DNA from: Tyzzerella sp.
GTDB taxonomy: Bacteria; Bacillota; Clostridia; Lachnospirales; Lachnospiraceae
Length of the DNA: 41,703 nt
Direction of reading: 5' to 3'
Assembly: GCA_017472665.1 (NCBI GenBank)
Contig: JAFUOS010000006.1
Location: 1-41,703, forward strand
In this document: positions 4,104 through 16,683 of the stretch, piece after piece
How the letters are laid out: every line of letters begins with the position of its first letter
Numbering within the stretch: the stretch's first letter is position 1
Notes under the pieces: generated by a model
What the model was told of the DNA's origin: nothing
What the model saw: the letters and a program-made list of their open reading frames with translations, nothing else
The model's database searches: none
Position numbers and translations under genes: made by a program

Positions 4104-5195
4104 CTATTTTTTCAATATCTCACCATCTTCAACCCTGCTCATCAAATCCACGATCTCCTTCACCGACTCCGAATCCGGATTCATCACATAATCCGCAACC
4201 TCCGGTGAAGAATACGTATAACTGCTGAAAATCGTACCCGTCGCCTCCACAGAACTCTTCTTCCACGAGCCGCCTTCCAAAAGCTCCTGCTTCACAAACT
4301 CCTGCACCTCATATTTCGTCATATTTGTTTTCACATAATCCGAAATATGAGAAATATTATTATAAATTTCTTTCACCGTATCCAAGGAAACCTGACTTTT
4401 AAACATATCTTTCTGTTCGTCTAACCACTCAAAATCAACCTTTAGATAATAAGAAATCTCAGTCTCATAAAGATTACTAAGTGCTGACATCGAGGCCTCA
4501 ACCCCAAAGGTACCTGCCTGCTCCAGTTTGTCTTTTTGACCATTGGAAACACCCGGAATCGTCACATAATATTCACCCGGCGTCGCTGTCACAAGAATCT
4601 GCTTTGTCTCTGGATTCACCGTAGCAATCATGTTTACAGTACTAATGCTATTTCCATCAATGTCATCATACACATCTCGAATATAAACATTGAAAGAATC
4701 TTCCGCCACCGAAAACACCTGACTGGAATTCATGAAATCCATCGTATTCGTCTGCTTCTCCGTTTCTGCTTTGTACGGAGCACCGGTAACCGCTTCCAGC
4801 ATGTAATTTGCAACTCCCACGCAAATAGTTCCAAGTACCAAAATGAGCATAATAAAACAACCAAAAATCCTTCCGATAATGGCACAAACTTTCTTCCGTT
4901 TCTGTGTCGCATACGTAATCAGAAACAGTACTGCCACAATCGCTATCACCGCCATCGTATATTTAAATGGAAGTACACCCAATGTAAACAGGGTTCCTAT
5001 AAAGACCAATGACAAAACACACTGCAATACCGTAAAAATAATGCCAACTCTCTTAGATCTCTTTTGCTTCTTTTCTGTCTTTTTTGCAAGTTCTCTTTCT
5101 GCAGACTTTTTACCCCCATCTGGTGTAGACTTCGCAGGATTATTAAACTGTTGTTTTGTCTCCTCAATCTTCTGCAGCTTTTTCTTTTTTCTCAT
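4104..5195 (-). CDS. LytR-CpsA-Psr (LCP)-like membrane protein, degenerate
   Basis: A 363-residue protein with a lysine-rich cytoplasmic head (1-48), about three hydrophobic helices (about 50-130) and an extracellular part resembling LCP enzymes, which attach teichoic acid or other glycopolymers to peptidoglycan. The recognisable LCP stretch is FNVYIRD...TVNMIATVNPETKQILVTATPGEYYVTI followed by EISYYLKVDFEWL. Where active LCP proteins have a RSDVN-type motif and an IPRD loop, this one has STVN and TPGE, so the key Arg and Asp residues are absent. The central active-site stretch with repeated Arg also appears deleted, and the protein jumps to the usual C-terminal ESV...I region. It lies 22 bases after the dac gene in the same operon. 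It is probably a non-catalytic relative. Confidence 0.72.
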   Translation of the reverse strand: MRKKKKLQKIEETKQQFNNPAKSTPDGGKKSAERELAKKTEKKQKRSKRVGIIFTVLQCVLSLVFIGTLFTLGVLPFKYTMAVIAIVAVLFLITYATQKRKKVCAIIGRIFGCFIMLILVLGTICVGVANYMLEAVTGAPYKAETEKQTNTMDFMNSSQVFSVAEDSFNVYIRDVYDDIDGNSISTVNMIATVNPETKQILVTATPGEYYVTIPGVSNGQKDKLEQAGTFGVEASMSALSNLYETEISYYLKVDFEWLDEQKDMFKSQVSLDTVKEIYNNISHISDYVKTNMTKYEVQEFVKQELLEGGSWKKSSVEATGTIFSSYTYSSPEVADYVMNPDSESVKEIVDLMSRVEDGEILKK

Positions 5196-5217
5196 GTCGT
5201 ACCCTCAATTATATTAC

Positions 5218-6597
5218 TTATAAATCCCTCATCTGCTCTTCTCGCTGCTTTCTGTACTGCATACGTCTGAGCCTGCGTTTCTTCTCAAGTTGTTTTCTCT
5301 TATAATAAACAAAACCTACCAAGGCAACAAATCCAATGACAATGACTGCCAAGATTCCAAGAATCAACTTCACAATAAATGGAAGTCCTGTCTTTTTCTC
5401 CTGATTTTCCTCTTTCACTTCTTCTTTAATTCCATGAATTTCATTGTAATATTCATCAGTAATAGTAACTTCAACAACGCCTACTTCTTGTCCTTCGTAG
5501 GTATATGTCACCTTACCGGTTTTATCTTTTAACTCTGTAGGTGCTTCGAACGAAGATTCAAGCTGTTCTACTGTAACTCCCGAAGGCAAAACCACATAAC
5601 TGTCATCGGCCACTTTGGAAACATTTTCATTACCAACCATCTTCTTTGTAATTGGCACTTTTGTAAAATTATCAAATGCGTAATCTAACATAGCTCTCGT
5701 GTCAATATATGCATTCGTTCCGCCACCATGCGTTCGCATAACAACTGCAACCAGATTGGTGTCATCTTTCGTTGCAAATGTAACCAGTGTTGTAAGCGCC
5801 TGATCTGTATATCCCGTCTTTCCACCAACACAATACTCATAATAATTTGCATTGGCCTTCCAAATCATCTTATGATTCTGCTGAAATGTTCTGGTTTCCG
5901 CTGTAATATTTGTCGCTGGAATCGTATACTGCTGTGTATTCGTAATTTCACGGAATTTGTCATATTGGAATACCGCAGAACCAATCAGTGCCATATCTCT
6001 TACAGAGGTGTAATGTTCTGGGTCATGCAAGCCATGAGTATTCATAAAATGGGTATTTTTACAGCCCAGTTCCTGGACCGTCGCATTCATCACTTCTAAA
6101 AACTTGTCGTATCCGCCTTCCATATGTGCGCCAATCGCATGAGATACTTCGTTTGCCGATGCCAGAAGCATGCCATAAAGTGCATCTTCCATGACAAGTT
6201 CCTCGCCATCTTTAATCCCAATGTGAGCATCTCCATACTCTAAAAATCCAATGTCATCCCATGTAAATGTGACAGTCTCATCCAGCTCATAATTTTGCAA
6301 TGCGATTAATGCGGTCGCTACTTTTGTAATACTTGCCGGATAATGCTGGTCGTCAATGTTTTTCGCATACAAAATCGCACCACTGTCGATATCCATAACA
6401 ATTCCGGATTCGCTGTAAATCTGCGGTCCTGTTGCCCAGCCTTCTAAAGTATTGGAATCTACTTCCAAATTATATACACTATCTACTTCCGTTGATGGGA
6501 TTTCCACTACATTAGCAGCATTTACTGTCATTCCGACACTTCCAACTGCCAATATAGCTGCCATCATCCCCGAAAGCAGTATATTTTTCAACTTCAT
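5218..6597 (-). CDS. D-alanyl-D-alanine carboxypeptidase (PBP5-like, S11)
   Basis: Membrane-anchored penicillin-binding protein that trims the terminal D-Ala of peptidoglycan stem peptides. From the ATG at 6597 the protein has 459 residues. A signal peptide ends near NAA (about residue 28). The serine peptidase motifs are in order: SITK (Ser89-Lys92), SAN (147-149) and KTG (260-262, GGKTGYT). A C-terminal helix (LPFIVKLILGILAVIVIGFV) and a basic tail replace the usual amphipathic anchor. I prefer the 6597 start over an upstream in-frame TTG at 6615, because GGGGAGG lies 9 bases before this ATG and the TTG extension consists of that site itself. It is the first gene of a two-gene operon with the LCP-like gene. 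Confidence 0.95.
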   Translation of the reverse strand: MKLKNILLSGMMAAILAVGSVGMTVNAANVVEIPSTEVDSVYNLEVDSNTLEGWATGPQIYSESGIVMDIDSGAILYAKNIDDQHYPASITKVATALIALQNYELDETVTFTWDDIGFLEYGDAHIGIKDGEELVMEDALYGMLLASANEVSHAIGAHMEGGYDKFLEVMNATVQELGCKNTHFMNTHGLHDPEHYTSVRDMALIGSAVFQYDKFREITNTQQYTIPATNITAETRTFQQNHKMIWKANANYYEYCVGGKTGYTDQALTTLVTFATKDDTNLVAVVMRTHGGGTNAYIDTRAMLDYAFDNFTKVPITKKMVGNENVSKVADDSYVVLPSGVTVEQLESSFEAPTELKDKTGKVTYTYEGQEVGVVEVTITDEYYNEIHGIKEEVKEENQEKKTGLPFIVKLILGILAVIVIGFVALVGFVYYKRKQLEKKRRLRRMQYRKQREEQMRDL

Positions 6598-6632
6598 TTC
6601 AAATATCCTCCCCAAAATCTCTACCTTGTTTT

Positions 6633-6661
6633 ATCATACCCCATTTTATCTTTTCGTTCAA
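6633..6661 (-). promoter_or_regulatory. Promoter of dac operon
   Basis: Minus-strand TTGAAC (6661-6656), 17-base spacer, TATGAT (6638-6633), about 36 bases before the ATG. Confidence 0.65.
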
Positions 6662-6700
6662 GGCAAAATATGGTACTATTTAAGCAGTCATATTAAGTAA

Positions 6701-6905
6701 GATTTACAGTTAAAATATTTTCGAGAAGACATTGGAAGATTGTGATGAAAAACTTGCAACTGTCATACAGAAAATGGTCAGCCACTTTCACCGTTCATCT
6801 TTACGAACTTGAAAATGGCTGACTAATCACATCTCTGTATGGCAGTTGCTTAGCTTTTCACACAATCTTTCATCTGTTTGCGAGAAAATATTTTGACTGG
6901 AAATC
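6701..6905. repeat. 205-bp imperfect inverted repeat
   Basis: The outer arms GATTTaCAGTtAAAATATTTTC (6701-6722) and the reverse complement at 6884-6905 match at all but two positions. The match continues inward with gaps (GAAGATTGTG, CAACTGTCATACAGA against CAACTGCCATACAGA) to an inner GTCAGCCA/TGGCTGAC pair (6777-6784 and 6826-6833). No coding sequence is present. It fills the interval between the aconitase X small subunit and the dac promoter. It could be a MITE-like element or a large RNA hairpin. No clear target duplication is visible. Confidence 0.8.
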
Positions 6906-6921
6906 GTAGGCAATAAACTCC

Positions 6922-7365
6922 TTACTCCACTACAACAACTCCATCTTCCTTAATCGTAATCTTCATTCCATCCTTCACATAATCCAAAAACTCATCCCCA
7001 AGGCAATCCACTACCGGCATCGAAACATTGTCAAGCCACACATCCGCTAGAATTGCTCCTGCTGCCGCAAGGGAATCAATATGATTTGCAAATAACATAC
7101 AAGCCGGCTGACGTTCCATTGCACATGCACAGTACAGAACTAACCCTCCTGTTGTGGAGCCGATGGTCTGTGGCAGGCAAAGTGCTTTTCCAGCAAGTGG
7201 TTTTCCATATAAATCTGGATTATTCTGGTCACCACATTTTGCTGTTTTATCACCAAATTGTAATGGCGATTGAAGTGAAGCTAATGTATTAAATCCTTCG
7301 TGAGAAACCACCGCTTCTGCTACCGCTCTCCCTGGTGTTACTACACGTCCTTTAAATTCCTTCAT
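6922..7365 (-). CDS. Aconitase X swivel domain / small subunit (DUF126)
   Basis: About 147 residues, matching the aconitase X small (swivel) subunit. This subunit completes the active site of a two-subunit hydro-lyase; characterised relatives dehydrate cis-3-hydroxy-L-proline or phosphomevalonate. The family motif GKALCLPQTIGSTTGG is present around residues 58-74, with the conserved serine in IGSTTG. The preceding gene ends with TAG overlapping a possible GTG start. I take the ATG at 7365, two bases after that stop, because GGGGG lies 9 bases upstream. It is the last gene of the five-gene operon. The substrate cannot be deduced. Confidence 0.93.
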   Translation of the reverse strand: MKEFKGRVVTPGRAVAEAVVSHEGFNTLASLQSPLQFGDKTAKCGDQNNPDLYGKPLAGKALCLPQTIGSTTGGLVLYCACAMERQPACMLFANHIDSLAAAGAILADVWLDNVSMPVVDCLGDEFLDYVKDGMKITIKEDGVVVVE

Positions 7366-7367
7366 CA

Positions 7368-8642
7368 CTATTTGCCCCCTTTCGTGATTTGTGCCAAGAT
7401 TTCATTATCTGTATAATAGCGTGCCGTTGTGTATGTACGCAATTTGTTTGATGATGTGATAACCGGCATCGATTTACACAACGGATTGTTCATATACATG
7501 AGCGGACAAATATAGGATGTGATAACCCCTGTTTTCTCAAGTCTCGCCGCATACTCTGTCTTATTAAATTCTTCCAATACTTTTGGTGCCGCGGTAAATA
7601 CAGTTGGAATCACAACTTTGCTATTACCAGCCTCTTTCAGTCCTGCTTCCACGCGTTCTGTCCAAGTCTTCAATTGTTCCAAACTCATATGTGGACATCC
7701 CATAAAGCAAAGTTTTGGTGTCGCATCTTTATTCTTCCACATAACTGGATAATTGTTTTTCACGCGTTCCAATTCTGCATCATCGATAATATACACTTTT
7801 GCATCTGGCACAATCAAATCTTTCCCACATTCTTTTGCTTCTGGAGTTAAGTTTTCCACATGATAAAGGCCTACTGCACCATTTGATGCGGTTGCAGCAC
7901 CAAAATCCTTCAAGTAAGTGCGTGCTGCGTCGTTAAGTTCTGTTCCAATCCATTTGTCAAGACCTACAATATAAGGAACATCTTCCATGACCTTCATACC
8001 GATTGCAGATCCAAGAAGCTGCGCTTCTGGTTTCTTCTTTGTTTCCACTTTGATAATCCAGGTCGCTTTCCTTCCTTCATCTGTCAGAAGTCCAAAGTAA
8101 GGAACATATCCTACCACAGAACCCATGATATCCATGATACCTGAGTTACGGTTACAGCGTGCACCAAGTACGGAGTTTGCGTAAACTACTGCGGAAGACT
8201 CTGCCCAGCTAAGCACTTCTCCTTTCTTCGGTACATTTCCCACTTCATCCATGTAACAAGTACATGTAAATGCGTCCTTCTCCATAAGACCGAGTTTATT
8301 TAACTGGCCCTCATAGAAATCCTGTTTGCTGTACATGAATTTGTTAAAAATCAGTTTCTGCAAGAAGTTTGCTGGTACATTTGGATCCAATGGACGTGGG
8401 TCCACAGAAAATTTCTGTTTTGATACAGCTCCTGCTTCCAATAATTTATCCATCAGTTCATATACTGGTCCCAGTAATTTCAAACCGAAAGAAGTTACCA
8501 AATGGTTATATTCGGAAGTAACTGGCACCATCTTTTCTGCACCAAATGCTTCCCCGAACATCACCAGCGTTTTCATAACCTTTGCAAGTGTCTCGCCTTG
8601 GGCGCCATCTAATATGGCTTGTTGTTCTTTTGTTAATTTCAT
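7368..8642 (-). CDS. Aconitase X catalytic domain / large subunit (DUF521)
   Basis: A 424-residue catalytic subunit of an aconitase X-type dehydratase. Candidate iron-sulfur ligands sit in GARCNRNSG, in GCPHMS and in YICPLMYM, followed by the family's TSSNKLRTYT-like C-terminal motif. I place the start at the ATG at 8642 (MKLTKEQQAILDG, the usual family beginning, with GGAG 6 bases upstream) rather than the in-frame ATG at 8672. It is translationally linked to the small subunit gene. Together they should form a cytoplasmic Fe-S hydro-lyase. Its neighbour, a double-bond reductase, suggests the dehydration product is then reduced. Confidence 0.93.
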   Translation of the reverse strand: MKLTKEQQAILDGAQGETLAKVMKTLVMFGEAFGAEKMVPVTSEYNHLVTSFGLKLLGPVYELMDKLLEAGAVSKQKFSVDPRPLDPNVPANFLQKLIFNKFMYSKQDFYEGQLNKLGLMEKDAFTCTCYMDEVGNVPKKGEVLSWAESSAVVYANSVLGARCNRNSGIMDIMGSVVGYVPYFGLLTDEGRKATWIIKVETKKKPEAQLLGSAIGMKVMEDVPYIVGLDKWIGTELNDAARTYLKDFGAATASNGAVGLYHVENLTPEAKECGKDLIVPDAKVYIIDDAELERVKNNYPVMWKNKDATPKLCFMGCPHMSLEQLKTWTERVEAGLKEAGNSKVVIPTVFTAAPKVLEEFNKTEYAARLEKTGVITSYICPLMYMNNPLCKSMPVITSSNKLRTYTTARYYTDNEILAQITKGGK

Positions 8643-8694
8643 ATTAATCTCCATTCTGCCATGAGAATCCATGGCTTCCTTCCATATATAAAGC

Positions 8695-10758
8695 TTATAG
8701 TTTCATCGCAACGTCCCATGCGCCCCAGATAACGGTACGCAGGTTACCAACCTTCGCAGCATCACCAATCACATGTACGTGCTTGCTCTTTGGTGCAAGT
8801 GGTGCCGGATTGTAGCCTACTGAAAGGATGACGCTGTCTGCATCAATCTTAAATGATTTACCGTCTTTGTCAGTAACCATAACACCGTCTTTCAACACTT
8901 CTCCGAGTTTTGTTTCCAAATGAACTGGAACTTTGTTTGCGTTAAAGAAATCACGGAGGAAACTTGAGTTTGCAAGACAAACTCCTTTCACTGCAATCAG
9001 GTCATTCTGCATTTCTACGATAGTCGGTTTCTTTCCTTGCAAATACAAATCATATGCGATTTCACAGCCAGATAAGCCTCCACCAATAATCACAACATTT
9101 TCGCCAACTTGCTTTTGTCCAAGTAAGTATTCTGTTGCATCCATTGCGAATTCCACACCTTTCACAGGAATCTTCTTCGCTTTTGCACCAGTTGCAATAA
9201 TTACTTCATCTGCACCAAGTGAATCTACATCTTTTACTTCTGTATTTAACTTCACTTCGATTGGGTATTTCGTAAGTTCTCGTTCATACCAGGCAATCAA
9301 AGCTTTATCTTTTTCCTTGAATGATGGAGCTGCTGCCGCAATGAAAATGCCTCCAAGTTTATCGTCTTTTTCATACAACGTTACGCTATGTCCTCGTTTT
9401 GCACAAACGAGAGCTGCTTCCATACCACCGATACCGCCGCCGATAATAGCAATATTTTTCTTTTTCTTAGCAGGTTCAATCTTGTATTTTTTAGATTGCA
9501 TAACAGGTGGTACCAATGCGCAGCGAGCAAGTCCTCTTGTATCACCAAAATCTTGTGCATTTGCATGTCCTTTCCAGTGCGAAAAGTTGAAACATGCATT
9601 GTGACAGCAGATACATGGCCGGATATCTTCTACTCTATCTTCTATTAATTTAGTAATCCATTCGCCATCTGCAAGGAACTGACGTGCAATACCAACACCA
9701 TCAATACGTCCCTCTTCAATTGCTTTTGCACCAACTTCTGGTTCCATACGTCCTGCACAGACAACTGGAATATCCACAAACTTCTTGATATGAGCAACAT
9801 CATCCAAATTACAGTTTTGTGGCATATATTGCGGTGGATGAGCCCAGTACCAAGAATCGTATGTACCATTATCACAGTTGAGCATATCGTAACCGGCATC
9901 CTGCAAATATTTTGCTGCCTTTTCGCTTTCTGTCATGTCACGTCCAATTTCTGTATATTCTTCACCAGGAACTGCTCCTACACAGAAATCTTTTACTTTC
10001 GACTCTACTGAGTAGCGAAGAGATACCGGATAATCTTTACCACAAGCAGCCTTAATTGCTTTTACAATATCTACTGCAAAACGGTATCTGTTTTCAAAAG
10101 AACCGCCATATTCGTCTGTACGTTTATTGGTATACGGCAAAGTAAACTGATCTAACAGGTAACCCTCGTGAACAGCATGGACCTCCACACCATCAACGCC
10201 TGCTTCCTTACAAAGTTTTGCCGTTTTTGCAAATGCCTCTACAATTGTTTCAATCTCTTTCACGGTCATTGGGCGGCATGTTACATCTGGTGCCCATCTT
10301 GAAGGCAATTCACTCGGACTTGCAAGTTCGTGATCCGTATCAATAATTGGTTTTGCAATGGTACGCAGAACTTTGTTCTTATGTAACAACAATACATGGT
10401 CGGTAATTGCCCATGATCGTCCCATTCCCGCTGTAATCTGAACAAATAATTTTGCTCCTGTCTTATGAATCTCTTCCATGAATGGCTTAAGTTCTTTGAA
10501 CATCTTCTCATTCTGCCATAACCATCTTCCACCAAGTGTATCCTTGATTGGAGCAATGCCAGGAATGATAAGCCCTACATTGTTTTGCGCTCTTTCGATA
10601 AATAATTTGGCCGCTTCTTTGTCAAAATGATTCGGTTCCATCCACCCAAACAGAGATGTCCCGCCCATTGGACACATCACAATTCTGTTCTTAATCTCCA
10701 CGTTTCCGATCTTCCATGGAGTAAATAGTGGATCGTATTTTGGATTCTTGTTTTTCAT
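8695..10758 (-). CDS. Old Yellow Enzyme-like NADH:flavin oxidoreductase (enoate reductase / BaiCD-type)
   Basis: A 687-residue multidomain flavoprotein. An FMN-binding TIM barrel occupies about residues 8-380 (VDGVEVHAVHEGYLLDQF, a family signature). A [4Fe-4S] cluster motif, CICCHNAC plus ARCALVPP, lies near 384-415. A FAD/NAD Rossmann region follows, with GGGIGG near 440 and GGGLSG near 556. This is the architecture of 2,4-dienoyl-CoA reductase, 2-enoate reductase, BaiCD/BaiH bile acid reductases and trimethylamine dehydrogenase. These move electrons from NAD(P)H to a C=C bond, or the reverse. The start overlaps the end of the phosphoesterase gene by 4 bases (ATGA), showing translational coupling. 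The exact substrate is unknown. Confidence 0.93.
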   Translation of the reverse strand: MKNKNPKYDPLFTPWKIGNVEIKNRIVMCPMGGTSLFGWMEPNHFDKEAAKLFIERAQNNVGLIIPGIAPIKDTLGGRWLWQNEKMFKELKPFMEEIHKTGAKLFVQITAGMGRSWAITDHVLLLHKNKVLRTIAKPIIDTDHELASPSELPSRWAPDVTCRPMTVKEIETIVEAFAKTAKLCKEAGVDGVEVHAVHEGYLLDQFTLPYTNKRTDEYGGSFENRYRFAVDIVKAIKAACGKDYPVSLRYSVESKVKDFCVGAVPGEEYTEIGRDMTESEKAAKYLQDAGYDMLNCDNGTYDSWYWAHPPQYMPQNCNLDDVAHIKKFVDIPVVCAGRMEPEVGAKAIEEGRIDGVGIARQFLADGEWITKLIEDRVEDIRPCICCHNACFNFSHWKGHANAQDFGDTRGLARCALVPPVMQSKKYKIEPAKKKKNIAIIGGGIGGMEAALVCAKRGHSVTLYEKDDKLGGIFIAAAAPSFKEKDKALIAWYERELTKYPIEVKLNTEVKDVDSLGADEVIIATGAKAKKIPVKGVEFAMDATEYLLGQKQVGENVVIIGGGLSGCEIAYDLYLQGKKPTIVEMQNDLIAVKGVCLANSSFLRDFFNANKVPVHLETKLGEVLKDGVMVTDKDGKSFKIDADSVILSVGYNPAPLAPKSKHVHVIGDAAKVGNLRTVIWGAWDVAMKL

Positions 10759-11369
10759 AATTCGTTCGTCCTTTCTTCTTCATACTCAAATACATATCTG
10801 TCAAACGCATTAATCACCTGTGTATCTTTATACTGATCACAGCGTTTATGCTTTAGCCCATATCGCATATGAACATGCCCATGTAAAAAATACTTTGGCT
10901 GATATTTTTCCATCAGTGTGCGAAATACTCGAAATCCTCTGTGCGGCAAATCATCTCCATCATTAATTTCATATGCTGGAGCATGGGTCACCAGAATATC
11001 AAATCCTCCCCGCCAGAATAGCTGCAGCCAAAGCTTTCGAACTCGCTTTCGCATTTCCCTCTCTGTGTACTGATTCGTACCGGGGCGGTACCGCATGGAA
11101 CCGCCAAGTCCCAGAATACGGACACCTTTGTACACATAAATCTGGTCCTCAATGCTGACACAGCCCTCCGGTGGATATTTTTCATATTTGTCATCATGAT
11201 TACCATGGACATAAATGACAGGGGCAGTGGTAAATGTTGCAAGAAAAGATAAGTACGATGGCTCCAAATCCCCACATGAAATAATTAAATCAATTCCTTC
11301 TAATTTACTTTTTTCGAAAAAATCCCACAAATATGGAGATTCTTCATCTGCTATCGCTAGTATTTTCAT
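10755..11369 (-). CDS. Calcineurin-like metallophosphoesterase
   Basis: A 204-residue single-domain metallophosphoesterase. Metal-ligand motifs are visible: an altered first motif (IADEES instead of DxH), GDLEPS, GNHDD, THAP and GHVH. In the first motif the usual histidine is replaced (AIADEE), so one metal site may be altered. No membrane or secretion signals are seen. It lies between the BMP-like receptor gene (5-base gap) and the flavoprotein gene (4-base overlap). It is therefore surely cotranscribed, although its role in the pathway is not evident; it might process a phosphorylated or nucleotide ligand. Confidence 0.88.
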   Translation of the reverse strand: MKILAIADEESPYLWDFFEKSKLEGIDLIISCGDLEPSYLSFLATFTTAPVIYVHGNHDDKYEKYPPEGCVSIEDQIYVYKGVRILGLGGSMRYRPGTNQYTEREMRKRVRKLWLQLFWRGGFDILVTHAPAYEINDGDDLPHRGFRVFRTLMEKYQPKYFLHGHVHMRYGLKHKRCDQYKDTQVINAFDRYVFEYEEERTNEL

Positions 11370-11374
11370 GAATC

Positions 11375-13273
11375 TTACCCTTTCTTATCAATTCCCTGCT
11401 GCAAGAATACCGGAATTGCACTCTCTATCAATTCTTCTTTTGTTGGAATGTGACCGATTACGTTTTCAGCCAGCCAGTCCATATTCACGATTTCCTCTGG
11501 TGTGAGACTTCGCTGTGGGTCGTTTTGAACGATTCCATCCTGAGAATACAGCACCCCCGTAAACGGATTAAACTCACCGTTCATAATCGTGGTTTTCAAA
11601 AGCTCAATCAGACGATTTGTTCCGATTGGCAGATTTCTCGAGCAAACAACATCAATGACTCCGGCCGACATGCCCCACCAGTAGTTGATTGCCTTATTTG
11701 CAGAATCATCATCATACTTCCAGCTTCCATCCATGATTGCACGAATTAACTGCTCGTAAAATTTCCCCCAGTGCAGAAGCGGCATCGCAAGGTTACGCGT
11801 CCTTCCATCTTCCACATGATAAATTCCGAAATACCTTGACGCTTCGTCCGGAATCATCATATCTCTCGCAGAAATGCAGGAAGGCTGTACCTCTTTCACA
11901 TGTTCCATCGCATCATGATCTTTAATACAGTTCCAATCCAAATATACTTTTGCACGTGGATTAATCATCTTTGCTCCGAGTGCAAACGCATTAATGTTCG
12001 CAATCGTACCGTAAATTGGATAATCTGCGATGTAAGAAATCTTGTCGTTTTCCGCCATTGCTCCGGCAATTGCTCCCATCAGAAATTTTGCTTCATGCAT
12101 TCTGACATAGTAGGTACGAATATATCTGTGAGACGTATTCACAGAACAGTTTACGAACTTGACACTTGGATTTTCGATGGCTGCCTTTACGCTCGCCTGT
12201 GTAAATGCAGGCGTAGTTGTAAAAATCAAATTGCAGCCTTCCCTCAGCGCTTCATTGATAAACGATTCCACATTTTCCTTTGTGACGTTCACATAATAGT
12301 AGGTCTCCACTTCATCTGGAAACATCTGTTCCAAATGCAGACGACCGAGTTCATGCCCATAGGTCCATGCCGAAGAAGCCGGAGTTTTTTCATATATGAA
12401 TGCAATTTTTAATTTTGACACACTCAGCGAATAAAGCTTACCAAGAAGTTTCCTCTTTTCCGTTGGGTCCAATTTTAGTTCAATATCCTCTTCTGCTCCC
12501 AAAAGGTTAAATTCTTCCCAGCTCTTTTCTATTGTTGTCTTTAATTCTTTTGCAGACATCGCACAGATATTTTCATATCCATGTACCTGCACCAATGCCA
12601 AGAAGGCATCTCCTGTGGTGCCAGACTGCGAACTTTTCTTCTTCTCATATTCATACTTAAATCTCAGATAAATGGAGCGGAAGGACTTGCATTCATCCTC
12701 AGACCATGTCTCCCCTGGTTCTTTTCCTACCAATTCCTGCAATTTTTCAAAACTTCCCTCTTTGGTAAACCAAATATAATTAATCTGAGTCAGCGCATAA
12801 AAATCCATGAATTCATAATAAATTTTATTTTCTGGTTCTTCTGTACGTCTTGGAACAAGACGAGTAACCATACCCGGGGTAAACGGCACGCCAAAATACT
12901 TCATGACACTGACACGCTTATTCCCTTCTTCCACATAAAACTGATTCATGTACTCATATGCTTTAATCGGTTCACGAATTCCTTCTTCTACGTGACTGGT
13001 ACTTAGATGAGTCCATTTCTGCCCAAATTCTGTATCTTGATCTAATATTGGCATAAAGTTGCTGGCAAAAGCATTGCTTCGCCCATTTGTCTTTGTTCCA
13101 ACAATCTGGTCCACCGGAATCTCTACCAACCCAAGCGGAATCTCTGAGTACTGCCCTTTGGGTGGTAAAATATCATCCAAAACCTCCAAAGTTGGATTTT
13201 CTCCACGCAACATCCGATGCTGATATTCTTTTTTTCCTAATTTATAAGCTCTTTCATAATCTTCTAAAGCCAT
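11375..13273 (-). CDS. Cytosolic BMP-type ligand-binding protein with ParB-like N-terminal domain
   Basis: A 632-residue protein. The C-terminal half (about 285-600) matches BMP/PnrA-type substrate-binding proteins, which bind nucleosides or related ligands (KIAFIYEKTPASSAW, IADYPIYGTIANINAFALGA, WGMSAGVIDV). No signal peptide or lipobox exists, so unlike transport receptors it should be cytosolic. The N-terminal part (about 45-150) resembles a ParB/sulfiredoxin-like fold: VDQIV, EGIREPIKAYEY, FYVEEGNKRVSV, with the GNKR turn equivalent to the ParB nucleotide-binding box. The ATG has AAGGAGG at ideal spacing. It is the first gene of the five-gene operon. A role as an intracellular ligand sensor is inference. 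Confidence 0.85.
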   Translation of the reverse strand: MALEDYERAYKLGKKEYQHRMLRGENPTLEVLDDILPPKGQYSEIPLGLVEIPVDQIVGTKTNGRSNAFASNFMPILDQDTEFGQKWTHLSTSHVEEGIREPIKAYEYMNQFYVEEGNKRVSVMKYFGVPFTPGMVTRLVPRRTEEPENKIYYEFMDFYALTQINYIWFTKEGSFEKLQELVGKEPGETWSEDECKSFRSIYLRFKYEYEKKKSSQSGTTGDAFLALVQVHGYENICAMSAKELKTTIEKSWEEFNLLGAEEDIELKLDPTEKRKLLGKLYSLSVSKLKIAFIYEKTPASSAWTYGHELGRLHLEQMFPDEVETYYYVNVTKENVESFINEALREGCNLIFTTTPAFTQASVKAAIENPSVKFVNCSVNTSHRYIRTYYVRMHEAKFLMGAIAGAMAENDKISYIADYPIYGTIANINAFALGAKMINPRAKVYLDWNCIKDHDAMEHVKEVQPSCISARDMMIPDEASRYFGIYHVEDGRTRNLAMPLLHWGKFYEQLIRAIMDGSWKYDDDSANKAINYWWGMSAGVIDVVCSRNLPIGTNRLIELLKTTIMNGEFNPFTGVLYSQDGIVQNDPQRSLTPEEIVNMDWLAENVIGHIPTKEELIESAIPVFLQQGIDKKG

Positions 13274-13314
13274 AAGTAACCTCCTTTGAGGATATATTTT
13301 CCATTACATTACCA

Positions 13315-13343
13315 ATTATAACACATAAAAAAAGTGCTGAGAA
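13315..13343 (-). promoter_or_regulatory. Promoter of BMP/aconitase X operon
   Basis: Minus-strand TATAAT (13320-13315) with TTCTCA (13343-13338) 17 bases upstream. The -35 lies inside the terminator hairpin of the fatty acid operon, so the two transcription units are packed back to back. Confidence 0.6.
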
Positions 13344-13363
13344 TGTATTTCTCTGCACCTTTT
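13327..13363 (-). terminator. Terminator of fatty acid operon
   Basis: On the minus strand GGTGCaGAGAA pairs with TTCTCaGCACT, followed by a run of T. It lies 20 bases after the marR stop codon. Complementary A and T tracts on both sides make it potentially bidirectional. Confidence 0.85.
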
Positions 13364-13382
13364 GTAATTTTATCCTTTTATT

Positions 13383-13823
13383 TTATTCTCCATATGACCG
13401 AAAGAACACACACAGCCCCTCCAGACATTTAATCAGCACCGGAACTTCATCTTCCTTCAATTGTTGAATCACCGCATCCACCATCTTTTTATGAAAGTCA
13501 GCGTGATGATGATATGCTCTTTCTCCTTTTTCTGTCAAATGCACGTATACAACTCTTCGGTCTTCTTCACTTCGACTGCGAACTACATAGTTTTTTTTCA
13601 CCAAACTGTTCATGGACGTGGTAAGAGACCCCAGCGTAATTTTCTGAGCATGGGCAATATCCGACATTTTTCTATCTTGATCAAGTCCAATTGCCTCGAT
13701 AATATGCATATCATTATCTGTTATGTCTTCAAACTCTCCAGTAATAATCGCTTCTCTTTCTAAATCCCAAATATGTCTGAATAAATATACTAGTACATCG
13801 TTAATGCTTTCGTATGCGTCCAC
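13383..13823 (-). CDS. fabT: MarR family regulator, probable FabT-like fatty acid repressor
   Basis: A 146-residue MarR protein with a winged helix-turn-helix at about residues 45-110 (KMSDIAHAQKITLGSLTTSMNSLVKK, then the wing SEEDRRVVYVHLT). Its position at the end of the fatty acid operon matches FabT, the MarR repressor that binds TTTGA-N3-TCAAA palindromes with long-chain acyl-ACP as corepressor. Such a palindrome lies in the fabH promoter region. Start is GTG at 13823 with AAGGAG 8 bases upstream. Functional assignment rests on context and site match, not on ligand residues. Confidence 0.82.
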   Translation of the reverse strand: MDAYESINDVLVYLFRHIWDLEREAIITGEFEDITDNDMHIIEAIGLDQDRKMSDIAHAQKITLGSLTTSMNSLVKKNYVVRSRSEEDRRVVYVHLTEKGERAYHHHADFHKKMVDAVIQQLKEDEVPVLIKCLEGLCVFFRSYGE

Positions 13824-13864
13824 GTAAATTTCTCCTTCTGTAAGCTTCCATCCCTATATCGCTT

Positions 13865-13894
13865 ATTATACACAATCCCCCACCAAAGAATCAA
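13865..13894 (-). promoter_or_regulatory. Possible internal promoter for marR
   Basis: Minus-strand TTGATT (13894-13889), 18-base spacer, TATAAT (13870-13865), embedded in the last codons of the preceding gene. It would let the regulator be made independently of the fab operon. Confidence 0.4.
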
Positions 13895-14933
13895 TTACTT
13901 CCTTCACGGTTTCTATTTTTTCTGCTTTCCATGCATTTGCACCGCAAAACAGGAGTCCATCCTCCACTTTTCCTTTCACCGCATTCAGTAGTGCCTGCGT
14001 AATACAGTACGGAATTTCTGCCGGATTACAATTTCGGAGGCATCCCAGACATTTCGCAGGTGACTGCTTCTTGCCTTCCATAATCTTTTCCATGAATGAA
14101 TTTAAAATGGCTCGTCCAGGCATACCAACTGGACTTTGTACAATTACGATATCTTTCTCATTCGCATGAAGATAACTCTCTTTAAATCGAATATCTGCAT
14201 CACATTCCTCGGTCGTTACAAATCGGCTCGCAACCTGTACTGCATCTACTCCCAAATCAAACGCGTGCTTCACATCTGCCGCATCTGTAATCCCACCTGC
14301 CAAAGCTACGGGAATCTCCACACCATATTTTTCTGCATACTCTTTTACAACCTGCATAATGCGGATTACTTCCTCATCATAAGCTTCTTGATGGAATTCT
14401 TCCAGTTGTGTTTTATCAAACCCAAGATGCCCGCCTGCTTTTGGTCCTTCAATCACAACCAAATCTGCTGTGCGTTTATATTTCTTATCCCAGTATCTTA
14501 AAATAACCTTTGCAGATTTTTCAGTAGAAACAATCGGCGCAATTTTCGTGTTGCTTCCTTCTGTCAATTTTGGCAGCTCCGTTGGGAGACCTGCTCCTGA
14601 TATAATAATGTCGGCTCCCGTTTTCACTGCTGCTTTTACGTATTCCTCGTAATGGCGCATTGCTACCATAATATTGAATCCGACAATTCCATCTGGAGAA
14701 ATCTTTTTGGCTGCCTCATATTGCTTCTGGATGGCCCTTAAGTTTGCCTCTTTTGTATTTGTCTCAAAATCTGGTTCCTGAAATCCGATTTGTGCAGCAG
14801 AAATGATGCCAATTCCACCTTCTTTTGCTACTGCCCCTGCAAGCCTTCCAAGACTAATTCCAATTCCCATTCCACCTTGAATGATTGGCTTTTTTGCTTC
14901 CAAACTTCCTATTTTCAAAGGCTGATATTTCAT
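13866..14933 (-). CDS. FabK-like / nitronate monooxygenase family flavoprotein
   Basis: A 355-residue TIM-barrel FMN protein of the 2-nitropropane dioxygenase/YrpB superfamily, which also contains enoyl-ACP reductase FabK. It starts with KPIIQGGMGIGISLGRLAGAVAKEGG and has GPKAGGHLGF and ALAGGITDAADVKHAFDLGVDAVQVASRF, the FMN phosphate-binding region. It is longer than FabK, with a cysteine-bearing C-terminal segment (KCLGCLRNCNPAEIPYCITQAL, four Cys). It lies between accDA and the MarR gene within the fab operon and is distinct from the true fabK at 21828-22766. It could be an accessory enoyl reductase or a nitronate-detoxifying enzyme; the sequence alone does not decide. Confidence 0.85.
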   Translation of the reverse strand: MKYQPLKIGSLEAKKPIIQGGMGIGISLGRLAGAVAKEGGIGIISAAQIGFQEPDFETNTKEANLRAIQKQYEAAKKISPDGIVGFNIMVAMRHYEEYVKAAVKTGADIIISGAGLPTELPKLTEGSNTKIAPIVSTEKSAKVILRYWDKKYKRTADLVVIEGPKAGGHLGFDKTQLEEFHQEAYDEEVIRIMQVVKEYAEKYGVEIPVALAGGITDAADVKHAFDLGVDAVQVASRFVTTEECDADIRFKESYLHANEKDIVIVQSPVGMPGRAILNSFMEKIMEGKKQSPAKCLGCLRNCNPAEIPYCITQALLNAVKGKVEDGLLFCGANAWKAEKIETVKEVIDSLVGDCV

Positions 14934-14964
14934 GCTTATCTATACCTTTCTTTCCTTATACTAA

Positions 14965-16683
14965 CTACATTTTTCGGAATCTTTCATACCTGTTATCTAC
15001 TAATTCCTGCGCACTCAGTTTTGTATATTTCTCAATAAACGCCGCTAAATACAGCTCCATTTTGGCTGTGACTTCTTTTAAAGTGTCGACCGTAAATTCT
15101 TCCGGTTCTGCAAAAACCTGTTCCACGATTCCAGTCTTTTTCAAATGCTGGGCCGTCAGTTTCATTACACCTGCTGCTTCCTGCGCCAGACTGCTGTCCT
15201 TCCACAAAATGCTTGCAAATCCTTCTGGCGACAAAATAGAGTAAATCGAATTTTCCAAAACCCAGACTTCATCTGAAGTGGCCATTGCAAGAGCACCGCC
15301 GCTTCCGCCTTCACCGATAATGATAGAAACAATCGGCACCTTTATGCCCGACATTTCATACAAGTTGCGCGCAATCGCTTCCCCCTGACCGCGTTCTTCT
15401 GCTTCAATTCCACAGAAAGCACCCGGAGTATCTACAAAACAGATGATCGGTCTTCCGAATTTCTCTGCCTGTTTCATGAGACGCAAGGCTTTGCGGTAAC
15501 CATCTGGCGACGGCATACCATAGTTTCTTTCTATATTTTCTTTTGTATTTTTTCCTTTTGCCTGTGCAATGACAGTCACCGGCATTCCACGAAAACGTGC
15601 AATACCGCCTACAATTGCTTTGTCATCTCTATAATAGCGGTCCCCGTGAAATTCCATAAAGTCTGTAAATAATTCTGAGATATAATCTGTCCCCACAGGG
15701 CGTTCTTGTTTTCTCGAAAGCTGCACTCTCTCCCAAGCAGTTACATTGTGGTTATATTCCTGCTGCAAATTCAGATGCTCTGGATCTTGAAGAACTGAAT
15801 CCTGTATTTCTCCTTTTTCGTGCAGCTGAATAATTTGGGAAATGGTGTCCCGCATATCTTTTCTTTCTACAATTTTATCGATAAAACCATGCTCCAAAAG
15901 AAACTCTGCTCTCTGGAATCCTTCCGGAAGCTGCTGCCCAATCGTCTGTTCAATCACACGCGGTCCGGCAAACCCAATGAGTGCCTTCGGTTCTGCCAAA
16001 ATAATGTCTCCCAACATTGCAAAACTTGCCGTTACTCCTCCGGTAGTCGGATCTGTCAAAACGCTGATGTAAAGCTGTCCTGCATCATGATGGCGTTTCA
16101 AAGCTGCAGAAGTCTTAGACATTTGCATGAGAGAATGGATCCCCTCCTGCATTCTCGCTCCACCAGAACAAGCGAAAATCACAACTGGAAGTTTCTCCGT
16201 TGTAGCACGCTCCACTGCCCGGGTGATTTTTTCGCCGACGACTTTTCCCATACTCGCCATCATAAATCTTCCATCACAAGCCGCTAAGACAACTTCTCGC
16301 CCGTCGATTTTTGCTTTTCCGGTAACTACAGCCTCATCTAATCCTGTTTTTTCTCTCAGCGCCTGTACCTTTTCTTCGTAACCTCTATAGTTCAGAGGAT
16401 TTCCTGAAGTAAGTCCCGTATCCCACTCTTCAAATGTATCTGAATCTGCAATCATTTTGATTCGGTTCATGGCGTGCATGCGGAAATAGTGCCCACATTT
16501 CGGACAGATATAATATCCATTCTTTACATCTTCCGTCATAATCGCCGATTTACACTCATTACACTTTTTCCAGAGTCCCTCCGGAACCTCAGGTGATACC
16601 GTACGTTCTATCGCATTTTGCGATTCTGTCAGAGAAATATATTTCTTCTGATTTGGTTTTTTAAACATACTAGATAGCTTCAT
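14965..16683 (-). CDS. accDA: Fused acetyl-CoA carboxylase carboxyltransferase (AccD-AccA)
   Basis: A 572-residue protein joining the beta subunit (AccD, about 1-285) and alpha subunit (AccA, about 305-572) of the carboxyltransferase that transfers CO2 from carboxybiotin to acetyl-CoA to give malonyl-CoA. The AccD part has the four-cysteine zinc finger (Cys41, 44, 60, 63) and [11 protein letters not shown]. The AccA part has [23 protein letters not shown] and [10 protein letters not shown]. Normally these are two proteins. The start codon overlaps the end of accC by 14 bases, with GAGGAA upstream. Confidence 0.96.

Follow-up and report, generated by a model that had tools for sequence, protein, structure and literature searches.

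A stretch of 41,703 nucleotides from a Tyzzerella sp. of the family Lachnospiraceae (class Clostridia; contig JAFUOS010000006.1; hereafter the window) carries five tightly packed genes on its minus strand between positions 6922 and 13273, which a preliminary description had read as one operon and pathway. We recovered the five open reading frames (ORFs), and a Pfam scan of the window's proteins confirmed the five family assignments, all with scores above cut-off; in the other loci examined, these genes form two separate modules. The module of main interest is a trio made of an Old Yellow Enzyme (OYE)-type Fe-S flavoprotein (10758-8695; PF00724 Oxidored_FMN, 204.6 bits, and PF07992 Pyr_redox_2, 136.9 bits), the large subunit of an aconitase X (AcnX) enzyme (8672, or 8642, to 7368; PF04412, 316.4 bits for a cut-off of 31.5) and the small, or swivel, subunit of AcnX (7368-6922; PF01989 AcnX_swivel, 46.3 bits for a cut-off of 27; GSTT motif, S71). 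Our results indicate that this trio is a functional unit, because tight gene order, co-occurrence, unlinked partners and partner exchange all agree. It is probably a self-contained cassette for a two-step reductive dehydroxylation, which would act as an electron sink in changing genomic neighbourhoods.

Linkage and co-occurrence of the reductase and AcnX

At least 585 stretches of the GTDB collection encode AcnX relatives. We examined the best 80 of these loci, chosen for closeness and not at random. In 77 of them OYE is a direct neighbour of AcnX (74 before it and three after it; three are without), with median gaps of 22 nt between OYE and AcnX and of 1.5 nt between the large and small AcnX genes. 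The surroundings of the trio change from locus to locus, and no conserved transporter or extra enzyme was found at the trio among the 71 loci with an upstream and the 71 with a downstream neighbour. A gene on the same strand and within 60 nt of the trio was seen upstream in 9 of 71 loci (a MarR gene in seven of them) and downstream in 10 of 71, where the neighbours are of unrelated kinds and some are probably antisense calls; genes in the fetched loci were called by a greedy longest-ORF procedure, which gives some antisense ORFs in GC-rich loci. The preliminary description had also remarked that no transporter accompanies the genes. This is right for the window's locus, but elsewhere a TAXI-TRAP transporter precedes AcnX in L090, a locus with no adjacent OYE, and L080 has a related TRAP permease about 4 kb ahead of its cassette. 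Ruminant gut metagenome-assembled genomes (MAGs) account for many of the carriers among the 80 loci, and the named isolates Mediterraneibacter glycyrrhizinilyticus (L044) and M. agrestimuris (L066) for two. The E. coli genome collection gave no match, and a search of viral contigs returned 25 pattern stretches and no relatives. The MarR-type gene, which differs from the one in the window, stands directly before OYE in seven of the best 80 loci (L048, L055, L057, L078, L089, L096 and L104), and its binding site could reveal the inducer.

Co-occurrence was counted in draws of 200 genomes from the family and 391 genomes from the class, with limits set by eye (about 50% identity or more for AcnX and at least 50% for OYE). 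The count excludes G419, in which a contig end truncates AcnX; G241, truncated as well, was counted among the AcnX genomes that lack OYE. In the family draw, 10 of the 12 genomes with an AcnX of this clade hold an OYE of at least 50% versus 15 of 200 genomes overall (Fisher 8e-12), and in the class draw the window's type of OYE is present in 14 of 24 AcnX genomes versus 23 of 391 (Fisher 7e-14); the genomes are related and both values are overstated. In the other two AcnX genomes of the family draw (G015 and G038), the OYE next to AcnX is of another subtype, and the same holds for eight of the other ten of the class draw (G246, G350, G405, G414, G453, G477, G520 and G537). Finally, five genomes of 0.9-1.2 Mb contain a solitary AcnX, and all five encode an OYE of 64-68% on another contig.

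Reductase subtypes and the proposed reaction

The flavoprotein combines in one chain a flavin mononucleotide (FMN) barrel, a four-cysteine cluster site and a domain for flavin adenine dinucleotide (FAD) and NADH. The four cysteines (C382, C385, C389 and C413) are invariant in a 10-row alignment, and one of the 64 rows of a larger alignment (L194) has no Cys at one aligned position. Two motifs, H-x(1,2)-HEGYL and DxGxYDxWxxxHPP, are present in all 24 AcnX-linked OYEs, some of which are only 28-31% identical to that of the window. The same motifs occur in 34 unlinked OYE relatives of at least 41% (two with YE for YD), and both are missing from all six OYE paralogues of 29-32% in AcnX-bearing genomes. 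The OYEs of 28-31% identity ('type 2') constitute one clade of the OYE tree (SH-aLRT 100), and their AcnX partners are split: a 24-row group (SH-aLRT 98) full of type-1 partners takes in those of L025, L026 and L188 and leaves out those of L191, L193 and L194. AcnX has exchanged its OYE subtype in the course of evolution but is rarely without an OYE, and its linkage persists over three OYE subtypes. These data support the original idea that AcnX dehydrates a hydroxy acid and works together with a reductase of the enoate type, as the pairing is conserved, the two genes co-occur even where they are unlinked and the association survives exchange of the reductase subtype.

The reaction that we propose consists of two steps. 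The family and the residues suggest that the AcnX heterodimer, which would hold a [4Fe-4S] cluster at three cysteines, dehydrates a free hydroxy acid to a 2-enoate; this acid would most likely be of the beta-hydroxy type from which the two known AcnX reactions start. The FMN/FAD/Fe-S flavoprotein would then use NADH to reduce the double bond of the enoate, giving a saturated acid. The net conversion of hydroxy acid and NADH to saturated acid, water and NAD+ would provide a fermenting anaerobe with an electron sink. FldZ, a clostridial 2-enoate reductase, acts after a 2-hydroxyacyl dehydratase that depends on coenzyme A (CoA), whereas here the dehydratase would be the CoA-free AcnX. The closest solved relatives of the window's OYE are an NCR (6qkg, E 1e-59) and then 2,4-dienoyl-CoA reductase, and the OYE subfamily has D301 at what we take to be, from placement by eye, the position of the proton-donating His of the latter. 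By description, not by sequence, the window's OYE can be likened to FldZ and EnoR, with which it shares a mass of about 73 kDa, an FMN-containing OYE domain, a four-Cys Fe-S site, an FAD/NADH domain and occurrence in anaerobic Clostridia (passages of PMC5882074). According to the same passages, clostridial 2-enoate reductases of like domain make-up reduce free enoates with NADH; the NADH-dependent FldZ of Clostridium sporogenes is described there as reducing cinnamates and no aliphatic enoate, and enzymes related to FldZ are said to take broader enoates (PMC5882074).

Several findings weigh against this scheme. The adjacency seen in 77 of 80 loci stems from the closest ones, and more distant AcnX genomes often have OYE unlinked: OYE adjoins AcnX in 10 of 12 family genomes but in 14 of the 23 class genomes that were judged (G241 being left unjudged at its contig end), and it lies elsewhere in the genome in G081, G109, G212, G218, G298, G330, G377, G428, G490 and G506. 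G256 has an AcnX (41%) but OYEs of 35-37% only. Kinship of the genomes inflates the Fisher values, and several of the branches that scatter type-2 partners in the AcnX tree are supported at only 82-92. OYE is found without AcnX in 5 of the 15 OYE genomes of the family draw and in 9 of the 23 of the class draw, including three from f9, a family of small genomes. An OYE relative also stands behind 2-hydroxyacyl-CoA-dehydratase-type genes in G081 and G428, both of which have AcnX, and related OYE-type enzymes reduce other compounds, e.g., bilirubin and bile acids. Because OYE occurs without AcnX and behind these dehydratase-type genes, the reductase subfamily has wider uses; the different dehydratase beside OYE in G081 and G428 fits an enoate reductase, without proving one. 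The dehydratase-type genes of G428 comprise two for HGD-D, one for a BcrAD/BadFG activator and one for a small protein resembling CdhC, and relatives of them are found in G081. OYE relatives that follow genes of this kind (HGD-D dehydratase-like, BcrAD/BadFG activator, small CdhC-like) at L235 (6433-13881) and L236 (1-8679) look like another reductase cluster.

Alternatively, AcnX and the reductase might meet at the same enoate and not act in series: the enoate would come from elsewhere, AcnX would hydrate it and the reductase would reduce it, in the detoxification or salvage of an unsaturated acid. Reactions of the aconitase family are reversible and phosphomevalonate dehydratase (PMDh) was assayed in the hydration direction (passages of PMC10040528), and the OYE genomes without AcnX (5 of 15 and 9 of 23) also speak for this possibility. 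We nevertheless consider it improbable, since the close packing of the genes and the retention of AcnX through changes of OYE subtype suggest that AcnX makes the substrate of OYE. Slightly less probable again is that OYE reduces an unrelated electron-poor compound, such as a bile pigment, a steroid or a xenobiotic, and shares only regulation with AcnX. The best NCBIfam models for the window's OYE are indeed those of bilirubin reductase and BaiCD, Fe-S flavoenzymes of the same architecture, yet its scores of 343.7 and 341.3 bits are less than half of the respective cut-offs of 750 and 825 bits, and the linkage to AcnX holds over three OYE subtypes.

The BMP-like gene, the phosphoesterase and the layout of the locus

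The other two genes, also on the minus strand, encode a BMP-like protein with a PnrA/BMP domain (13273-11375; PF02608 Bmp, 76.4 bits, best stretch residues 288-447) and a calcineurin-like metallophosphoesterase (11369-10755; PF00149 Metallophos, 50.0 bits). Relatives of the BMP-like protein were found in 74 of 150 genomes of the family (E 1e-20), some of which match the BMP domain only. We compared the 29 other family loci with the best scores (among L121-L150), with flanks of about 1.5 kb: a phosphoesterase adjoins the BMP-like gene in 27 of them, and neither AcnX nor OYE was found in the flanks of any of the 29. The pair is also present in four genus-mates (L260-L263). Conversely, no BMP or phosphoesterase relative was detected at E 1e-10 near AcnX in the best 80 of the at least 585 loci (flanks of up to 8 kb, some shortened by contig ends). 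In the window's genus, AcnX is found in 5 of 10 genomes and the BMP protein in 6 of 10, the window's own genome being counted in both; the four further genomes with both have them on different contigs. The BMP-phosphoesterase pair is therefore not a companion of AcnX in these samples and is an independent conserved pair, separate from the cassette.

The genus-mate G204 (locus L268) has BMP and no AcnX, in the order BMP, phosphoesterase, 54 nt, DacA and LCP. In the window, the trio stands between the phosphoesterase and a gene for a DacA-like D-Ala-D-Ala carboxypeptidase (5218-6615, minus strand; PF00768, 167.3 bits), which marks the far side of the cassette site and is followed by an LCP gene. 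Because G204 has the phosphoesterase and then DacA where the window has the trio between them, the most plausible reading of the five-gene array is that the trio occupies a site which a relative has empty. The repeats near the cassette show no clear sign of an insertion sequence or of a target duplication, and base composition is unremarkable.

These results bear on the proposal that the five genes form one pathway, in which the BMP-like protein senses the ligand and the phosphoesterase catalyses an additional step. The tight packing, the 4-nt overlap of the phosphoesterase and OYE genes and the probable co-transcription in the window's genome argue for it. Against it stand the 27 of 29 loci in which the BMP-like gene stays with the phosphoesterase without the trio, the separate contigs of BMP and AcnX in four genus-mates that have both, and the arrangement in G204, where BMP, phosphoesterase and DacA follow each other with no AcnX. 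We reject five-gene co-occurrence as one pathway, given the separate linkage of BMP with the phosphoesterase and of OYE with AcnX in other loci, and the proposal is largely refuted, unless a function linking the genes was gained recently in the window's lineage; we regard it as very unlikely. The preliminary description had named joint conservation of the five families across genomes as a check on its reading: conservation holds for the OYE-AcnX trio and fails for the first two genes, which do not accompany AcnX in its best 80 loci.

The junctions within the array consist of a gap of 5 nt between the BMP-like and phosphoesterase genes, an overlap of 4 nt (ATGA) between phosphoesterase and OYE, a gap of 22 or 52 nt between OYE and the AcnX large subunit and an overlap of 1 nt between the two AcnX genes. 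The length of the third junction is set by the choice of the AcnX large start codon, for which there is a conserved position near 8642 and, as a second possibility, an upstream ATG at 8672. Because of this tight packing, including the 4-nt overlap, the five genes are likely to be co-transcribed in the window's genome (1.66 Mb, 65% complete). The single promoter initially placed ahead of the array did not find support: the best promoter-like site ahead of the BMP gene (13343-13315; 10 of 12 matches, with TG) belongs to a class of sites that is not enriched, with 26 in positions 5000-15000 versus 25.9 expected from shuffled sequence. We also considered the MarR-type gene at 13383-13823 as a regulator of the unit and rejected it; its best NCBIfam match is FabT (132.5 bits, below the cut-off of 200) and it adjoins fatty-acid genes (named by eye). 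A hairpin of about 150 nt lies between the AcnX small and DacA genes (6725-6885, minus strand), with a minimum free energy of -76.7 kcal/mol and a z of -10 versus shuffles (computed on 6720-6900). It is present as a single copy in the genome assembly (65% complete) and matched no Rfam family, and it is a putative terminator or relic.

The BMP-like protein has its PnrA/BMP domain in the C-terminal half, and this part resembles 3s99 and 6pi5. Its N-terminal 287 residues match no Pfam family (one sub-threshold match, E 0.11) and contain an invariant EGNKRVSV stretch. The protein does not resemble an exported ABC lipoprotein, as its N-terminus (MALEDYERAYKLGKKEYQ) is without signal or lipobox (by eye) and there are no permease neighbours. 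A ParB-like N-terminus was considered and rejected: at E 10, ParB_N (PF02195) matches two other places in the genome but not the N-terminus of the BMP protein, and an hhalign comparison of this N-terminus with one of these places covers the ParB box in a suggestive register with an insignificant score (E 0.17, probability 0.4%). The phosphoesterase falls below the cut-off of YfcE (TIGR00040; 24.8 versus 56.25 bits). No paper on the pair was found by title in the open-access literature.

The AcnX clade, its substrate and its significance

Usable AcnX large subunits were obtained from all of the 110 loci and small subunits from 106 of the 110 (the rest being below 90% length), giving alignments of 111 and 107 rows in which the same genome is present twice at least in L021/L081 and L091/L181. 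In the large subunit, C128, C317, C380, E149, S150, K401 and Y405 are each found in 109-111 of 111 rows; in the small subunit, S71 is found in 107 of 107 rows, and S71 and T72 each in at least 106 of 107. The closest solved relative is TkAcnX (E 2.1e-52; E=7.5e-12 for the small subunit), whose cluster cysteines C110, C283 and C342 correspond to C128, C317 and C380 and whose catalytic residues E129/S130, K361/Y365 and small-subunit S62/T63 correspond to E149/S150, K401/Y405 and S71/T72. C342, K361 and Y365 lie outside the printed alignment and were matched by motif, plus the AtAcnX alignment. With both domains above the Pfam cut-off and the catalytic and cluster residues present, the two proteins belong to AcnX. 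The roles of the TkAcnX and type I residues are taken from passages of the AcnX structure paper (PMC8184944), according to which both known AcnX reactions dehydrate beta-hydroxy acids, and passages on ApPMDh report that three such cysteines hold a [4Fe-4S] cluster (PMC10040528).

The residues around the substrate site are different. The site-C cysteine of type I is missing and replaced by L382 (Leu in 109 of 111 rows). N79 of TkAcnX corresponds to D82 (Asp in 109 of 111), which together with R84 (108 of 111) is part of a nearly invariant DPRP stretch, and the phosphate loop of TkAcnX is replaced by HLVTSFG (H48 in 110, T51 in 109 and S52 in 110 of 111 rows). The column of TkAcnX N53 (K56 or L57 depending on the alignment) has no dominant Asn, and there is no acidic residue at positions 48-54, where D203 of AtAcnX falls. 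The alignment of the substrate loop shifts by up to 2 residues between methods, and D82 and R84, as placed by alignment only, lie near the substrate site. In the AcnX tree, the clade forms a long, fully supported branch apart from both TkAcnX and AtAcnX.

With TkAcnX, an AcnX IIb enzyme (7CNR and 7CNS; archaeal mevalonate 5-phosphate dehydratase type), the clade shares two subunits, three cluster cysteines, the ESS motif, the C-terminal Lys and Tyr and the small-subunit Ser-Thr; in contrast to TkAcnX, it is without the phosphate-binding residues, stands on its own long branch, occurs in a bacterial genome bearing DXR and has an adjacent OYE. With type I AtAcnX, it shares the family, the catalytic Ser, Glu, Lys and Tyr and a Thr at the place of AtAcnX T72; AtAcnX is a single chain, whereas the window's subunits are separate, lack the third Cys (L382) and have no counterpart seen of W35 or D203. 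Bacterial subclasses IIc-IIf (Watanabe 2021) are, like the window's AcnX, made of two subunits with no landmark residue of either known activity, and are described in passages of PMC8184944 as awaiting characterisation, the lack of known function being mentioned also in passages of PMC10040528; the window's clade is probably one of these subclasses. A known AcnX activity, on mevalonate 5-phosphate or cis-3-hydroxyproline, is the least likely alternative of all, since, despite the shared family and TkAcnX as the closest solved relative, the N53 and N79 expected of a phosphomevalonate dehydratase (AcnX IIb) are not kept (D82 in 109 of 111 rows), an acidic residue at 48-54 and the third Cys of type I are missing, the genome (65% complete; mevalonate genes outside the search) encodes DXR of the methylerythritol phosphate (MEP) pathway, and the NCBIfam C3LHyp dehydratase model gives 146.2 bits of the 700 needed.

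More distant AcnX relatives are found in other settings. In L032 (9173-12548) and L033 (33-3680), AcnX pairs of 24-32% lie near a protein family of urocanase size that is common to both (670-672 aa) and near histidine-degradation-like genes (by eye); because of these neighbours, other AcnX may act in imidazole-acid breakdown. In L035, L207, L208, L209 and L210, distant AcnX genes (two copies in L035 and L209) stand beside TRAP-transporter-like and, in some, FAD-oxidoreductase-like genes (by eye).

There are a few hints at the substrate of the cassette. In G428, which also holds two OYE relatives, three genes come directly after AcnX small, with an overlap that reaches at most 8 nt when the longest ORFs are taken. 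They encode a small, membrane-like protein that matched no family, a flavoprotein resembling fumarate reductase or NadB (379.6 bits for TIGR01812, which has a cut-off of 567) and an Fe-S subunit (117.9 bits for TIGR00384, over its cut-off of 88). This fumarate-reductase-like set was found at one place only among 256 stretches; its flavoprotein alone also matched L048 at 33%, probably NadB. Because of the conserved charged residues D82 and R84 and of this operon, both weak hints, one may guess at a hydroxy-dicarboxylic acid, or more broadly at a substrate that bears a second group, carboxylate or otherwise polar, although such a guess is unlikely to be right. The TAXI-TRAP transporter of L090 would weakly suit an organic acid substrate in general. 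For the idea of tricarballylate or aconitate, no paper on the gene set was found by title or abstract start.

We found no description of the gene set in the open-access literature by title, abstract start or passages (subscription papers and preprints being outside the search). The cassette consists of ordinary enzyme families in a combination that we found described nowhere in the open-access literature searched and that is widely conserved. The linkage to OYE supplies bacterial AcnX enzymes of unknown function with a partner, and hence with a type of reaction that can be tested. Known clostridial hydroxy-acid reductions run through CoA esters and radical dehydratases, and a CoA-free route, if true, would presumably be cheaper. 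It is possible, and we put this forward tentatively, that CoA-independent reductive dehydroxylation of free hydroxy(di)carboxylic acids is a common, so far undescribed electron sink of intestinal Clostridia, which would be served by an uncharacterised AcnX clade with an exchangeable reductase (three OYE subtypes and possibly a membrane fumarate-reductase-like complex in one lineage). As the carriers include ruminant gut MAGs, the reaction could influence both the organic acids released from the gut and the disposal of electrons by fermenting bacteria.

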